Position numbers and translations under genes: made by a program. The notes beneath the pieces are model-generated. The model worked only from the letters and a program-made list of their open reading frames with translations, was not told the DNA's origin and ran no database searches. This document shows positions 2,313 to 16,234 of a stretch of 64,000 nt of DNA, piece after piece. The stretch is taken from NCBI GenBank assembly GCA_900112995.1, contig FONU01000018.1, positions 1 through 64,000 on the forward strand, given 5' to 3'. Position 1 is the first letter of the stretch, and the number at the start of each line of letters is the position of its first letter. This stretch comes from [Lactobacillus] rogosae (lineage in GTDB: Bacteria; Bacillota; Clostridia; Lachnospirales; Lachnospiraceae).

Positions 2313-2663
2313 ATGTTTTTCTCAATTAAGAAAGATATTTATGATAAAAAAGTCTTATTAAAGACCTGTTATAAATTCACAGATGAATATTATATTCACT
2401 TGGATTCTAATAAGGATGAGTTTGTTATTAGTATACAAAAGAAAGATGGGAAGGCAGATACATCCATAGAAGGTGAATTTAAGAATGAACTTATTGAATT
2501 TGCTAATAGAGAGATAGTATTTGAACAAACGAAAAATATTAGAGAACTTCTTTTTGCAAGGTCAATGGCATCTTCAGTTATATATGATGATGAAATACAA
2601 ACAGATATTAATTTGAATGTCGATGATAACAGTTCAATGAGGGATTGGTTTGATAATGAATGA
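2313..2663 (+). CDS. hxsD: HXS system protein HxsD-like
   Basis: This 116-residue cytosolic protein opens the radical-SAM peptide operon. Its N-terminus (KKDIYDKKVLLKTCYKFTD, about residues 6-24) and central block (EFKNELIEFANREIVFEQT, then IRELLFARS) match the pattern I know for HxsD, the small fourth member of the His-Xaa-Ser system. HxsD has no known enzymatic role and probably helps substrate recognition. The start at 2313 is chosen because AAAGGA at 2300-2305 is well spaced, while the ATG at 2298 lacks a ribosome site. The acidic tail after residue 90 seems extra. It overlaps the next gene by 8 bases. Confidence 0.65.
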   Translation: MFFSIKKDIYDKKVLLKTCYKFTDEYYIHLDSNKDEFVISIQKKDGKADTSIEGEFKNELIEFANREIVFEQTKNIRELLFARSMASSVIYDDEIQTDINLNVDDNSSMRDWFDNE

Positions 2664-2868
2664 GTTAAAACTTAGTAAAGAAATATATAATTATGGTCTT
2701 GTTAAAATGGCAGTTAAAGAATTTGCTGGAATATCTAATATTGTTGTTAATATTGAAGAAAATTTTTTAAGATGCGTATTTACAAATTGTATTTATGATG
2801 TCGAAATTACATTGAAAGAATTTGAAAATTATGTCATTGATTTAAATAATCAAAGAGGATTGATATGA
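2656..2868 (+). CDS. Small HxsD-like paralogue, 70 aa
   Basis: This short protein overlaps hxsD and is followed by the peptidase gene, whose start overlaps its stop. Aligned by eye with the HxsD-like protein, it shares the opening K-[DE]-I-Y-[DN] and a Phe at the same distance, then a beta-like segment (NIVVNIEENFLRCVF) and a C-terminal helix (LKEFENYVIDL). I infer a diverged HxsD-type or peptide-recognition domain. The start is uncertain: TTG at 2650 is better spaced from GAGGG at 2639-2643, ATG at 2656 is further away. No known enzyme motif is present. Confidence 0.55.
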   Translation: MNELKLSKEIYNYGLVKMAVKEFAGISNIVVNIEENFLRCVFTNCIYDVEITLKEFENYVIDLNNQRGLI

Positions 2869-3896
2869 CAATGGTAATTAATGTGGTTCTTATAATATTA
2901 TTTTGTTATATTGCATTAATAAGTTATTACAGTGATAAGAAAAATGGGATAATTCCTAATAAAAATCTTTTAGTCATAGGAATAATAGCTGTTATATTGA
3001 AAATTTTAGATTACAAAAATATAGATATAATGATAATACAATTAGTTATAGCATGTATTTGTTCATTATTATTTTATTTATTACATATATGGGCTGGTGG
3101 TGATTCTAAGTTATTTATAGTTGAGGCTATATTGACACCTAATATATTATATGTTCAGGATAGAATGGCGATTTTCCAAGTAATAGTTTTTTCATACTCA
3201 TCGGTATATGTATATTTGATTATAGATAGTATATATGCATATATTCGCAAAAAAGAAACATATAATAAGCTTTCTTTGAAAAATATAAATGTAAAATTCT
3301 TTATTATGAATTGGTTATTAGTATTTTTGGCTTCAGCAGATATTCAAAAGCTGTTATATTATTTATTGAGAAAGTTTTATATTGAAAATTACATAATATT
3401 TGTTTTTGGAAATATGTTTTTTGTATTGATAATGAAAGAAGTTCTTGTAAAAGTAAGCAGACAATTAAGAAATAGTCTATTGATATTGTTATTGGTTTTA
3501 TTTATGGTTCTTTCTCTTATATCTCCAATAAATTTTAAAATTGATTTAAAAAACGTAATTATTGTTTTGGTTATAGTTATTCTTCGTGAATGGGCAGATA
3601 GGTATAGTTATACACCAATTAAGACTTTAGATATAAAAAAAGGAATGATATTATCTGCATCATCAGTAATGTTATTTTTAAACTCAAACATAAAAGGTCT
3701 GCCTATGAAAGTATCAGAAGATATGGCAGCCAGACTGACAGATGAGGAAGTAGATAGTATTAAAAGATGGGCAAGAACAAAGAATGGGAAAGATGAATTA
3801 ATTATAGTAAAGAAAATTCCATTTGCTTTTTTTATAAATATTGGTTATGCAATATTTATGATAATAGGAGGCTATAAGTTGTGGTTAGGTACATAA
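2865..3896 (+). CDS. Prepilin-peptidase-like (A24) membrane aspartyl protease in the HXS-like operon
   Basis: A polytopic membrane protein of 343 residues. The first 100 residues carry the two A24 signatures: D24 in SDKKNGIIPN and D80 in WAGGDSKLF, both next to transmembrane helices, as in type IV prepilin and TadV/FlaK peptidases, which cleave leader peptides at the cytosolic membrane face. More helices follow to about residue 275, then a soluble stretch (MAARLTDEEVDSIKRWAR) and one last helix near 320-340. It is longer than TadV-type enzymes. AAAGAGG precedes the ATG. It sits between the HxsD-like genes and the radical SAM genes, so the downstream repeat protein is its likely substrate. Confidence 0.75.
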   Translation: MTMVINVVLIILFCYIALISYYSDKKNGIIPNKNLLVIGIIAVILKILDYKNIDIMIIQLVIACICSLLFYLLHIWAGGDSKLFIVEAILTPNILYVQDRMAIFQVIVFSYSSVYVYLIIDSIYAYIRKKETYNKLSLKNINVKFFIMNWLLVFLASADIQKLLYYLLRKFYIENYIIFVFGNMFFVLIMKEVLVKVSRQLRNSLLILLLVLFMVLSLISPINFKIDLKNVIIVLVIVILREWADRYSYTPIKTLDIKKGMILSASSVMLFLNSNIKGLPMKVSEDMAARLTDEEVDSIKRWARTKNGKDELIIVKKIPFAFFINIGYAIFMIIGGYKLWLGT

Positions 3897-5002
3897 GTGA
3901 ATATAAAAGCAAGTATAGAATATTTATTTTTTCTACTAAAGAAATTTACACAAAGGAATTACTAAATAAACAAAAAAATGTAGGAGAGTTTATAAATAAT
4001 AAAATTGTATTTTATCCAGATGGAGAGACAGTAAAATTAAGTCCTAAAGAAATAAAAATAATGGATGAATTCTGTGATGGAGATGTTTTAGAAATATCAG
4101 AAACAGGTATAATTTACAGATGGTATTCGGTTATAGAAGGAGATGCAGGTATTGCGACAACTCCAAAATGTAATTCTAATTGCATAATGTGCCCTGCAAG
4201 TGATGGTGAACGAAGTCATAATACAGGATTATCATTAGAACAGCTAGAAACAGTAATCAAACATATGCCAGAAGATTTATGGTATTTTACAATAACAGGA
4301 GGAGAACCAACTTTAATTGGTGAAGATAATTTTATAGAAATATATAGAACAGTAAAAGAACATCTGCCGAATACCAATATATTGCTTTTAACAAATGGTA
4401 GGACGTTGGGAAATTATAGTTTTTTTGAAAAGTTTAAAAAGGAAAATATGAAAAATCTTAGAATAGCTATACCTATTCACGGAAGTATAGCATCAAAATA
4501 TGATTATATAACGCAGGCAAAAGGTGGATTTGAGCAAACAATTAGAGGGTTGACTAATATTATTAATGCTAATATTGAAACAGAAATAAGAATTGTAGTT
4601 AGCAAGCTAAATGAGGATGATATACTTGATATTGCCAAGCTCATTGTTGCAAAATTTAAAAGAGTAAGAGTAGTTCATTTTGTAGGACTTGAAATGCGAG
4701 GTAATTGTGCTGCTAATGCTGATAAAGTGGTTATATCGTATGAGGAGGCTTTTTCAAAGTCAAAGAAAGCAATTCAATTATTAATGATAAATGGGATTGA
4801 TGTTGCTTTATATAATTTTCCTTATTGTATGATTGAGAGAGGATATTGGTCATTAGCGAAGAAAAGTATTTCATCATATAAGGCAGAGTATTATGTTGAA
4901 TGTGATAAATGTAAAATGAAGTCTATGTGTTGTGGGATTTTTACAGCTACAAGAAATTTTTACAAGCCAAGAGTATATCCAATAAAAGGTGATAATGAAT
5001 GA
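3881..5002 (+). CDS. hxsC: Radical SAM maturase, HxsC-like
   Basis: A 373-residue radical SAM enzyme. The 4Fe-4S ligands form CNSNCIMC (C97, C101, C104), followed by the SAM-binding TGGEPT block near residue 139. A C-terminal cysteine group (ECDKCKMKSMCC, about residues 344-355) could hold an extra cluster. The roughly 90-residue N-terminal domain before the radical SAM core and the CNSNC motif fit HxsC, one of the paired enzymes of the His-Xaa-Ser system that modify a repeat peptide. It starts with GTG inside the end of the peptidase gene and overlaps the next gene by 4 bases, so translation is coupled. Confidence 0.75.
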   Translation: MVRYISEYKSKYRIFIFSTKEIYTKELLNKQKNVGEFINNKIVFYPDGETVKLSPKEIKIMDEFCDGDVLEISETGIIYRWYSVIEGDAGIATTPKCNSNCIMCPASDGERSHNTGLSLEQLETVIKHMPEDLWYFTITGGEPTLIGEDNFIEIYRTVKEHLPNTNILLLTNGRTLGNYSFFEKFKKENMKNLRIAIPIHGSIASKYDYITQAKGGFEQTIRGLTNIINANIETEIRIVVSKLNEDDILDIAKLIVAKFKRVRVVHFVGLEMRGNCAANADKVVISYEEAFSKSKKAIQLLMINGIDVALYNFPYCMIERGYWSLAKKSISSYKAEYYVECDKCKMKSMCCGIFTATRNFYKPRVYPIKGDNE

Positions 5003-6402
5003 TAGGTTATTTTAATGCTAAAAAACAGAGTGAGGATGAATATTTACTTACAAATGATATGGGATTTTATAAGTATGTAAATTCAGAAACATATGATAAA
5101 TTATGCAATAATAAAATCGACAAAGAAGATGAAGATTATGAGGATTTGATTGAAAAAGGGTTTATTATTAATATATCAATAGAAGAATATATAAAAAAAT
5201 ATTCTGGATTTATAAGAAGTATGAAATCATATTGTATGGGAGGTACTTCTTTACATATATTTGCAGTTACCAATATGTGCAATCTTGACTGTATTTATTG
5301 TCAGGCACATAGTAGAAATTCACATTTGAATGGTAAAATGACAGAGGAAATAGGAAAGCGTGCAATTGATATTGCGATGAATTCCAAGAATGATAACCTG
5401 ACATTTGAATTTCAAGGTGGCGAGCCGTTGTTAAACTTCAATGTTATAAAAAGTATGATTGAGTATTCAAAGGAAAAAAATAAAATTTTAAATAAACATA
5501 TTGAATACACAATAGTAACAAATTTGACGTGTCTGAATGATGATATATTACATTTTTTGTTAGATAATAATGTTAGTATATGTACTTCATTAGATGGAAC
5601 AAGAGAAATTCATAATTATAATAGACCATACAAATTATCAAAAATAGGTAGTTTTGATGATGTTATTGATAAAATAGCATATTTAAAAAGTAAAGGTGTA
5701 AATGTTGGGGCTATTCAAACAACTTCTAAAAAAAGTATTCAAAATCCTAAAGAGATAATAGATATGTATTTAAAGATTGGCATAAACCATATTTTTTTAA
5801 GACCATTAACTCCATTAGGTATGGCTGATGATTCGTGGAAGAAGGTTGGATATACAGTAGAAGAATATATAAATTTTTATAAAGAAGCATTTCAGTATAT
5901 AATGGAACTTAATAAAAATGGTACATTTTTTGTTGAAACGCATGCGGCATATTTTTTGTGTAAGATACTTGAAAATTATTCTCAAAATTATATGGAATTA
6001 CGTTCGCCTTGTGGCGCTACATTAGGACAAATGAGTTATTATTATGATGGCAATATATTTACCTGTGATGAAGGAAGAATGTTATATGAAATGGGAGATA
6101 GTTCTTTCTTGCTAGGAAATGTATATAATGATTCATATATGGATATGATTGGTTCCGATATATGTAAAACATTATGTAAGTCCTCTATAATAGAAAGTCT
6201 TCCAAAATGTAATAATTGTGTATATCAGCCATACTGTGGAACTTGTCCTGTTGTTAATTATGCCAGCGATAAGGATTTGTTTTCTAAAAATCCAAAGGAT
6301 TTTAGATGTAAAAGTTACTCAGCAATTATGGATTTATTATTTGAAATAATACATAGAAATGACAAACAGGAAATGGATATATTATATTCGTGGATAAGAT
6401 GA
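4999..6402 (+). CDS. hxsB: Radical SAM maturase with SPASM-like C-terminus, HxsB-like
   Basis: A 467-residue radical SAM protein. An N-terminal domain of about 80 residues precedes LHIFAVTNMCNLDCIYCQ (C94, C98, C101) and the EFQGGEPLLNF block near residue 138, both very like HxsB. The C-terminal third carries many cysteines (CGATLGQ, FTCDEGR, CNNCVYQPYCGTC, FRCKSY), the SPASM-type arrangement for auxiliary iron-sulfur clusters. Such enzymes make crosslinks or other changes on ribosomal peptides; the chemistry here is unknown. ATG overlaps the end of hxsC, and the substrate gene begins 11 bases after the stop. Confidence 0.75.
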   Translation: MIGYFNAKKQSEDEYLLTNDMGFYKYVNSETYDKLCNNKIDKEDEDYEDLIEKGFIINISIEEYIKKYSGFIRSMKSYCMGGTSLHIFAVTNMCNLDCIYCQAHSRNSHLNGKMTEEIGKRAIDIAMNSKNDNLTFEFQGGEPLLNFNVIKSMIEYSKEKNKILNKHIEYTIVTNLTCLNDDILHFLLDNNVSICTSLDGTREIHNYNRPYKLSKIGSFDDVIDKIAYLKSKGVNVGAIQTTSKKSIQNPKEIIDMYLKIGINHIFLRPLTPLGMADDSWKKVGYTVEEYINFYKEAFQYIMELNKNGTFFVETHAAYFLCKILENYSQNYMELRSPCGATLGQMSYYYDGNIFTCDEGRMLYEMGDSSFLLGNVYNDSYMDMIGSDICKTLCKSSIIESLPKCNNCVYQPYCGTCPVVNYASDKDLFSKNPKDFRCKSYSAIMDLLFEIIHRNDKQEMDILYSWIR

Positions 6403-6412
6403 GGTGATATGG

Positions 6413-7123
6413 ATGGAAGAGAAAAAGTTTCCTAAAATAAGTAAATCTATTCAAGATTTTTTTGAGGATGAAGATGGAAGTATAACAAGAAATAAAGCAT
6501 TGTTAATGGGTGGAATGATATTAGTGTTAGGGATGCTTTTTAGTGATGAGGTGTATGCTGCACATAGAACTCATTCAACGCATAGGACACATTCGACCCA
6601 TAGGACTTCTAATAATGCGCATGGAAGTCATTCAACACACGCAACTCATAGCAATACACATTCAAATCATGCAACTCATTCAACACATGATTCACATAGC
6701 TCCCATAGTACACATTCAAATCACGCAACACATTCGACAAGTACTGTAGCACCAACAACACAGTCAGCACCAACAGAATCAGCAACAGCAGCACCAACAA
6801 CTCAGTCAGCAACGATAGAACCAACAACAGCAGCACCAACAACACAGTCAGCAACGATAGAACCAACAACAGCAGCACCAACAACTCAGTCAGCAACGAT
6901 AGAATCTACAACTATAGCACCAACAACGCAAGCGGTAACAATTGAATCAACAACATCAGCAATGACGGAAGAGGCGGCAATAGATGCTGGAACTTTAAAT
7001 TCTGCATGTAATGATGTAATAAATACGTTAGTAGGCGGTGGAACATTGGCAGCAGTTGGAGGAGTTTTAGCACACAAAATAAAAAAGAATAAAGATAAAA
7101 ATAAGGATGATAATAAAAAATAG
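6413..7123 (+). CDS. hxsA: His-Xaa-Ser/Thr repeat protein, HxsA-like modification substrate
   Basis: A 236-residue protein in clear modules. Residues 1-22 form a charged leader ending FFEDEDG. Residues 29-43 are a hydrophobic helix, and VYA-A at 47-50 is a good signal peptidase I site. Residues 51-107 hold 18 histidines, nearly all as H-x-S/T triplets. Residues 113-182 are five 14-residue Thr-rich repeats, and residues 203-221 are a Gly-rich weak membrane segment before a Lys-rich tail. GAGGTG at 6401-6406 supports ATG 6413 rather than the GTG inside it. It is the likely target of the two radical SAM enzymes. DEDGS before the helix resembles Flp pilin leaders, matching the A24 peptidase in the operon. 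Confidence 0.75.
   Translation: MEEKKFPKISKSIQDFFEDEDGSITRNKALLMGGMILVLGMLFSDEVYAAHRTHSTHRTHSTHRTSNNAHGSHSTHATHSNTHSNHATHSTHDSHSSHSTHSNHATHSTSTVAPTTQSAPTESATAAPTTQSATIEPTTAAPTTQSATIEPTTAAPTTQSATIESTTIAPTTQAVTIESTTSAMTEEAAIDAGTLNSACNDVINTLVGGGTLAAVGGVLAHKIKKNKDKNKDDNKK
6563..6733 (+). repeat. Codon-level His-x-Ser/Thr triplet repeat
   Basis: A 171-base stretch of CAT/CAC codons every third codon encodes HRT, HST, HAT, HGS, HDS and similar triplets. Two phase breaks occur, at SNNAH and NTH. Synonymous differences between units show that the repeat has been kept at protein level rather than being a very recent DNA expansion. Confidence 0.9.
6749..6958 (+). repeat. Five tandem 42-bp units in the repeat-protein gene
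   Basis: Five in-frame 42-base units encode the consensus APTTQSATIEPTTA. The three central units are almost identical at DNA level, which points to recent duplication; the first and last have drifted. The low-complexity Thr/Pro segment looks like a stalk or linker between the His repeat and the C-terminal membrane segment. Confidence 0.9.
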
Positions 7124-7163
7124 CACGATTATTTAATTAAAATTTAATATAATAATTTAAAAC

Positions 7164-7215
7164 AGAGCAAGTACTAAGGTGACGAAAACCTTTCAGTACT
7201 TGCTCTTATTTTATT
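7164..7215 (+). terminator. Hairpin terminator closing the HXS-like operon (repeat copy)
   Basis: AGAGCAAGTACT (7164-7175) pairs with AGTACTTGCTCT (7195-7206); an inner AAGG/CCTT pair extends the stem, and a T-rich run follows. It is one copy of a repeat seen again at 16154-16196 and in broken form at 285 and 7791/9121. Function as a terminator is inferred from shape and position 40 bases after the last operon gene. Confidence 0.75.
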
Positions 7216-7417
7216 TAAAGAATGAAGAAGAATGATACTGAACTGAGAAAATTCATGTCAGGAGAAAGAACAACAACATTGAACAGTTATGTTTACTCCT
7301 GTGGCACTTGGTGTCAGGGGGAGAGGAATGATTGAGAATAGGAGTTTTAACTTGGTTGAGTTTTATGTTAAAATGGATAAAACGAATCGAAGTTTGTGCA
7401 TTATGGAGGATATTAGA

Positions 7418-16106: not shown

Positions 16107-16234
16107 AAATCATCAACATACAACTATATATAATAACTTTGATATAAAGAAGCAGAGCAAGTGCTAAGGCAACGAAAACCTTTCAGTACTTGCTCTTATT
16201 TTATCACTAATGCTTACATAAAAATCATTACACA
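16107..16234 (+). repeat. Complete copy of the recurrent repeat with hairpin terminator
   Basis: This 128-base copy has a left flank (to about 16153), a hairpin (AGAGCAAGTGCT at 16154-16165 pairing with AGTACTTGCTCT at 16185-16196, AAGG/CCTT inside) and a right flank ending TCATTACACA. Partial copies are at 285, 7164, 7791 and 9121. A base change in the left arm relative to 7164 leaves a G-T pair, so the stem is retained. It probably also terminates the MATE transcript. Confidence 0.8.

Follow-up and report, generated by a model that had tools for sequence, protein, structure and literature searches.

The window analysed here is the first 64,000 nucleotides of contig FONU01000018.1 of [Lactobacillus] rogosae (Lachnospiraceae; assembly GCA_900112995.1), and its positions 2313-7123 carry the operon of a His-Xaa-Ser (HXS) radical S-adenosylmethionine (radical SAM) peptide modification system. 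Six genes lie there on the + strand, overlapping or abutting one another, at the very coordinates where a first-pass annotation made from the DNA letters had placed six closely packed genes. The analysis makes it quite probable that this HxsA3-type operon is equipped with a dedicated peptidase of the archaeal type (FlaK/EppA-like, family A24) acting as a leader peptidase. The genes and the stem-loop that follows them are listed below.

2313-2663, + strand: hxsD, 116 amino acids from ATG 2313 (reading frame open from 2298); TIGR03976, 85 bits (cut-off 50)
2656-2868, + strand: hxsD-like gene, 70 amino acids; NF038315, 57.9 bits (cut-off 41)
2865-3896, + strand: A24 (type IV leader peptidase) membrane aspartyl protease, 343 amino acids; FlaK/EppA-like, with D24 and D80 of the GGD motif
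3881-5002, + strand: hxsC, radical SAM maturase; TIGR03977, 284.1 bits (cut-off 267.9); C97-C101-C104 and C316, C341, C344, C350
4999-6402, + strand: hxsB, radical SAM/SPASM maturase; TIGR03978, 510.6 bits (cut-off 370); C94-C98-C101 and SPASM-pattern Cys 338, 356, 404, 407, 413, 416, 437
6413-7123, + strand: hxsA3, His-Xaa-Ser/Thr repeat protein, 236 amino acids from ATG 6413 (reading frame from GTG 6404); NF038309, 109 bits (cut-off 65)
7164-7206, + strand: stem-loop directly 3' of hxsA3; the RNA fold of 7140-7222 has -23.7 kcal/mol, z -6.0

Identity of the operon

The curated cut-offs of NCBIfam served as the standard for calling each gene of the window. They are passed by five of the six genes, the third one, encoding the peptidase, being without an NCBIfam match. 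The operon is therefore firmly identified as an HXS system of the HxsA3 subtype, which is already named in NCBIfam. Sequences resembling ribosome-binding sites suggest ATG 2313 (hxsD) and ATG 6413 (hxsA3) as starts in preference to those of the longest reading frames, and the stem-loop is a likely transcription terminator.

The two small proteins had been described by the first-pass annotation as including one HxsD-like member. Both are in fact members of the HxsD group: TIGR03976 identifies one (2313-2663) as HxsD proper, and NF038315 the other (2656-2868) as HxsD-like. The presence of two radical SAM enzymes, each with a CxxxCxxC motif and C-terminal cysteines, is borne out by Cys conservation: besides the CxxxCxxC motif, HxsB has seven invariant SPASM-pattern Cys (71 sequences) and HxsC four further invariant Cys (68 sequences). 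Their best scores are to HxsB (511 bits) and HxsC (284 bits), the anaerobic sulfatase maturase model reaching 131 bits; a best score to such an unrelated family had been named beforehand as the outcome that would speak against an HXS system. With the HxsB and HxsC models so far ahead, ordinary sulfatase maturation genes are ruled out.

An HxsB-alignment scan with one genome per GTDB species returned 504 relatives, the best 80 of which were taken for study. About 60 Clostridia loci in this set share the same core, composed of HxsD, usually HxsD-like, A24, HxsC, HxsB and HxsA3. In most of them a MORN-repeat membrane protein is encoded between HxsB and HxsA3, and in a second layout the MORN gene and HxsA3 are placed first. 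In all, the operon was found at more than 60 loci, mostly of Clostridia; with its gene order it recurs in Lachnospiraceae, Oscillospiraceae, Clostridium, Desulfosporosinus and a spirochaete (L092). The Firmicute variant that had been proposed, to which a protease and another HxsD-like gene are added, is thus right, and it represents the usual Clostridia layout and no one-off. It would be scarcely credible that the locus merely combines a low-complexity His-rich protein with unrelated radical SAM genes and forms no functional system. Replication slippage can indeed yield low-complexity repeats, but the operon and its order are conserved across lineages and all cluster-binding Cys are kept.

The leader of HxsA3 and the A24 peptidase

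The 5' end of hxsA3 encodes two adjoining elements, given here with the proposed cut sites.

6413-6478, + strand: class III-like leader MEEKKFPKISKSIQDFFEDEDG, with Gly↓Ser (6478/6479) as the predicted site of the A24 cut
6479-6562, + strand: 28-residue stretch SITRNK...SDEVYAA, a hydrophobic segment at whose end VYA↓A may be a site for signal peptidase I

HxsA3 N-termini are built from a hydrophilic stretch (FPKIxKSIxDFLYEEEG in many proteins), followed by [NS]I[TSP]RxK and then by a hydrophobic segment. The leader consensus across the HxsA3 proteins reads [DE]E[ED]G↓[NS]I[TSP]R, and of 71 leaders, 69 have Gly and 2 have Ala at the proposed cut. The leader measures about 22 residues, the version of the window ending in Glu-Asp-Gly. 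Its position is equally constrained: the motif lies 1-7 residues ahead of the hydrophobic segment in 64 of the 67 motif-bearing repeat proteins, and exactly 28 residues lead from the Gly to the first His in 54 of 69. A class III signal peptide is made of a hydrophilic leader of 6-26 amino acids ending in Gly, followed by some 21 hydrophobic residues, and is cleaved after the Gly on the cytosolic side (PMC4471445). The HxsA3 leader matches this definition in length, in its Gly at -1 and in its adjoining hydrophobic segment. Glu at +5 is missing from the HxsA3 proteins, which mostly have Asn, Ser or Gly there; this Glu5 is often absent in archaea and is dispensable for class III processing (PMC4471445). 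Outside the repeat proteins, an N-terminal hydrophobic segment is encoded by 289 neighbouring genes; the motif occurs in 2 of these, both of them HxsA3 genes with few repeats, so that no unrelated protein of this survey carries it. The HxsA proteins of four viral-collection contigs (L097-L100) have no class III-type leader, and no A24 gene lies nearby.

The A24 assignment of the third gene product, made by the first-pass annotation, stands up when the family is taken as a whole. Taken alone, the window protein scores weakly against PF01478 (20.1 bits, or 29.6 bits in the genome search, for a cut-off of 26.5), but 62 of 64 aligned members match this family (best E 3.4e-12). D24, G79 and D80 are invariant in the 64-member alignment, both catalytic Asp thus being kept. 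The archaeal A24 C-terminal domain (Arc_PepC_II) is matched by 12 of the 64 members. Recurrent NCBIfam matches of these members are to FlaK and EppA, weakly and in a few members only, and no NCBIfam model for the HXS-operon peptidase was found. FlaK (3s0x, E 0.015) is also the only PDB sequence match, and the AlphaFold model is a helical membrane protein with a predicted local distance difference test score (pLDDT) of 91.5. The apparent fusion of A24 to HxsC in L049 is a run of masked N bases and was discarded.

The link between this peptidase and HXS is exclusive. The long A24 gene immediately precedes hxsC in 69 of 69 loci, a few of which are near-duplicates. When 397 genomes of the family were searched with the peptidase profile, 3 full-length matches were obtained (317-353 bits), each at a locus that also has HxsB; the next-best match reached 44 bits and covered only about the first 125 positions, these lower matches being short ordinary A24 peptidases, which were common in the family and class genomes searched. 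In 391 genomes of the class, the 3 full-length matches all fell in HXS genomes. The fourth HxsB-positive genome of the class (L120) has no long A24, and its likely precursors are Nif11-like, without a class III-type leader. The more distant loci L080, L081 and L093, whose hosts are Omnitrophota and one other bacterium, encode diverged members of this A24 subfamily, which score 73-106 bits against the 64-sequence profile. The host genome of the window has three other, shorter A24 genes, and the operon A24 is therefore unnecessary for ordinary pilins. The long FlaK/EppA-like A24 is a fixed part of the HxsA3-type operon. The analysis itself shows what the operon is and that it is conserved, that HxsA3 has the leader and where it lies, that this A24 subfamily is linked exclusively with HXS and that its catalytic residues are invariant. 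The earlier suggestion that the product may be trimmed and exported in an unusual way has thereby received concrete support, from the class III leader of HxsA3 and from its exclusive association with one A24 subfamily.

Several observations nevertheless weigh against a leader peptidase role. A Foldseek search with the peptidase model gave no significant PDB match, FlaK included. In L091 the leader is present and the sole A24 found in the genome has the ordinary length of PilD. A conserved A-x-A/V-x-A motif (VYA/AFA) just ahead of the first His in most proteins also fits plain processing by signal peptidase I, with no need of A24, and the leader could serve maturase binding and not cleavage. 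In an unlikely alternative, the leader is only a recognition handle for HxsB, HxsC and HxsD, the A24 cuts at another place or acts on another protein, and signal peptidase I alone matures HxsA3. Three loci, L082, L089 and L091, have the leader and no adjacent A24; L082 and L091 speak for the handle. The L082 contig is short and yielded only a partial A24; in the L089 genome a long A24 of the HXS subfamily (91 bits) is found on another contig, which also bears an HxsC-like gene. Against the handle stand the Gly at -1 in 69 of 71 leaders (Ala in 2) and the fixed position at the membrane edge, which are what an A24 site needs, as well as the fact that no other protein type in the neighbour survey carried such a site.

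A class III leader followed by a hydrophobic N-terminus, at a strict distance from the repeats, also evokes pilins, and the peptidase-cut HxsA3 could be imagined to assemble as a pilin-like filament or coat. Pilus assembly genes, however, are not prominent among the recurrent neighbours of HXS loci, where no assembly ATPase or platform gene stands out, a further point against the proposed role of the A24 which also makes the filament unlikely. The lack of Glu5 and the second, C-terminal hydrophobic segment of the window protein and a few others reduce its likelihood to a very low level. As a Flp pilin HxsA3 was rejected: the sole Flp_Fap match of the host is below the cut-off and lies on another contig. 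Cleavage of the HxsA3 leader by the dedicated A24 is thus retained as the probable reading.

Repeats, maturases and the proposed pathway

The remainder of hxsA3 falls into two regions.

6563-6739, + strand: His-x-Thr/Ser triplet region, 18 His, 15 of them in H-x-S/T
6744-7120, + strand: Thr/Pro/Ala-rich repeat linker (APTTQSATIEPTTA...), then a C-terminal hydrophobic segment and a Lys-rich tail, as read from the sequence and its direct repeats

The triplet region is the expected substrate of HxsB and HxsC. With residues numbered from GTG 6404, the window HxsA3 contains 19 His, of which 18 lie in residues 54-110. The first-pass annotation had counted 18 His in H-x-S/T triplets; the number is right for the repeat, and these His divide into 12 H-x-T, 3 H-x-S and 3 H-S-N. 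The 15 H-x-S/T triplets exceed anything obtained in 2000 shuffles of the repeat region (mean 8.3, maximum 14), and the step from one His to the next is exactly 3 in 15 of 17 cases. The C-terminal hydrophobic segment is found in the window protein and in a few other repeat proteins. It has no LPXTG, and its matches to anchor-type profiles are weak and below the cut-off. On account of this segment and of the Lys-rich tail, the C-terminus is a possible membrane anchor by which the window HxsA3 may stay attached.

The preference for Thr is a property of one clade. Thr occupies 42-76% of the third positions of the triplets in L016-L019, compared with 0-12% in the remaining loci, and L016-L019 form with the window a single clade of the HxsB tree (support 0.92). 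The Cys shared by the maturases are all retained in this H-x-Thr clade, so a hydroxyl seems to be needed at the third residue, Ser not being obligatory. Clade-specific changes were noted at HxsB 346 (Ala to Ser) and HxsC 276 (Ala to Cys). They are leads only, because the five related sequences share both by descent.

The chemistry applied to the triplets can be approached by analogy. The radical SAM enzymes HaaB and YhhB make i,i+2 links from His C2 to Cbeta, and MscB makes a Phe-Cbeta(Ser) link (PMC11002830). Strict His-x-Ser/Thr triplets would suit an i,i+2 cross-link, and Thr has the single Cbeta hydrogen that is required. An i,i+2 His-Ser/Thr cross-link is accordingly our leading guess for HXS, a speculative one for which the arguments come close to balancing without quite tipping in its favour. 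The alternative is a reaction on single residues, either Ser/Thr oxidation of the sulfatase-maturase type (formylglycine-like) or epimerisation. Anaerobic sulfatase maturases oxidise Ser or Cys. Secondary matches of HxsB include this family (131 bits; PDB 4k36 and 4k37), and each of the two radical SAM enzymes could have a task of its own. If only Ser/Thr mattered, however, the strict His at spacing 3 would be left without an explanation, and a single-residue reaction appears rather improbable. The free exchange of Thr for Ser in the clade of the window is not decisive, since a reaction at Cbeta would allow it as well as one at the hydroxyl.

HxsB aligns from its residue 40 with structure 5wgg, the thioether maturase CteB, which has a recognition element for the precursor (RRE) at its N-terminus. 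The N-terminal region of HxsB may be the site of precursor recognition. HxsD is predicted to be a ferredoxin-like half. Its AlphaFold model has the order beta-alpha-beta-beta-alpha (pLDDT 86.5), and its nearest PDB structures are ferredoxin-like designs and Pcc1, with a template modelling (TM) score of about 0.5 of the target, none of them significant. No winged-helix RRE in the PDB matches the HxsD model, and the predicted fold does not support HxsD as a winged-helix RRE of the PqqD kind. HxsD and HxsD-like match each other's models, HxsD-like matching TIGR03976 weakly, so the two are probably paralogues and may pair.

The events that these elements suggest can be ordered as follows, the leader cut site, the order itself and the surface location of HxsA3 being what we infer. 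HxsA3 would be synthesised with its leader, a hydrophilic stretch some 22 residues long that closes with Glu-Asp-Gly. HxsB and HxsC, aided by HxsD and HxsD-like, would modify the triplets in the cytosol, a location proposed because both maturases are iron-sulfur enzymes; the modification would probably link the ring of each His to the Ser/Thr at i+2. HxsA3 would then enter the membrane by its hydrophobic stretch of 28 residues, leaving the repeats outside, and the A24 would remove the leader after the Gly, on the cytosolic side of the membrane. A second cut by signal peptidase I at VYA↓A is possible. A broader and rather doubtful extension is that HxsA3 represents a radical-SAM-modified surface peptide of Clostridia, carried on a prepilin-type leader and freed by its own A24, whose tandem His-Ser/Thr cross-links would form a rigid, His-rich rod.

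Distribution, neighbouring genes and relation to known systems

The distribution of HXS is patchy. A match to HxsB was found in 5 of 397 family genomes, one of them a broken gene, and HxsA3 in 1 of 22 sampled genomes of the genus of the window. Single-protein scans of viral contigs found no relatives; the alignment scan of these contigs found seven HXS loci, one of which (L096) carries the operon with A24. A phage origin was rejected, the sole match in the phage collection, MT837156, having the appearance of a mislabelled bacterial scaffold. This entry (L010, labelled 'Bacteriophage sp.') bears a complete HXS-A3 operon nearly identical to that of Faecalibacterium prausnitzii (L029), beside a fabZ-like gene.

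A copy of the terminator-like stem-loop region (7164-7217) lies near 16150-16206, and the right half of this region is present again at 289-324, so that direct repeats flank the operon. The 32-base core occurs at only these 3 sites of the whole genome (289-324, 7164-7217 and 16150-16206). The copies are a possible trace of insertion or recombination.

Various genes were observed beside HXS operons. An XpaC-like gene (Halogen_Hydrol) lies downstream of HxsA3 in L011, L012, L046 and L048, and is followed in L011 (11448-15272) by two TelA genes and a rhomboid protease. A trypsin-like peptidase adjoins the operon in five loci (L073-L076 and L087; for example 13252-14148 of L075), and thirteen other loci have next to it a conserved membrane protein without family assignment (for example 7027-8187 of L039). 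At L120 (6289-14255), in another Clostridia genome, an HxsB relative scoring 389 bits is accompanied by two M16-type peptidases, by further radical SAM genes and by a pair of Nif11-like precursors whose His/Ser-rich tails have DW at the end; this may represent a different peptide system. In five loci of distant bacteria (L080, L089, L091, L093 and L094), a single HxsB is surrounded by as many as six radical SAM genes of the HxsC-like type, and HxsA consists of plain Gly-Ser-His repeats ending in W.

The HXS system (HxsA/HxsB/HxsC/HxsD) was reportedly described by Haft and Basu in 2011 by means of comparative genomics. PMC9062424 cites Haft and Basu 2011 for HXS. The literature searched, thin on subscription journals, contained no report of HXS chemistry, the Hxs names being found only in passing mentions, and no report of A24 as a core part of HXS, of a class III-type leader or of an H-x-T clade; no paper in it brought together 'prepilin peptidase', 'radical SAM' and 'RiPP' (ribosomally synthesised and post-translationally modified peptide). 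A 2023 review of RiPP leader peptidases leaves prepilin and aspartyl peptidases unmentioned (PMC10885120), so an A24 in this role would be new, and the fixed pairing of HXS with an archaeal-type pilin protease appears to be previously undescribed. If true, no radical-SAM peptide pathway before this one would have had a leader peptidase of family A24. The HxsA3 subtype offers handles on HXS, namely a leader of defined form whose cut site is predicted and a dedicated peptidase, and the natural swap of Ser to Thr narrows the possible site of the reaction. The hosts include many bacteria of the gut and rumen.

Compared with HXS as modelled by TIGR03976-TIGR03978, the window is alike in having HxsB, HxsC and HxsD over their cut-offs and a His-Xaa-Ser/Thr repeat protein in the operon; it adds the HxsD-like paralogue, the A24 peptidase and the class III-like leader, and Thr largely replaces Ser. 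Both models of the HxsA3 subtype of NCBIfam (NF038309 and NF038315) are matched, and the gene set is that of the roughly 60 Clostridia loci, but the operon peptidase has no model there. This peptidase shares with archaeal FlaK and EppA the GxGD-type Asp pair and, in some members, the archaeal A24 C-terminal domain, whereas it is bacterial, longer (about 340 amino acids) and tied to a radical SAM operon instead of pili or archaella. Finally, the maturases of triceptides (three-residue cyclophanes) HaaB and YhhB and the dynobactin maturase resemble HxsB, on which the DynA model scores 113 bits, as radical SAM/SPASM enzymes and join the His ring to the Cbeta two residues on (PMC11002830). HxsB, in contrast, belongs to a separate family, has HxsC as a partner and would act, by a chemistry proposed here on the strength of that analogy, on a long membrane protein with many triplets.

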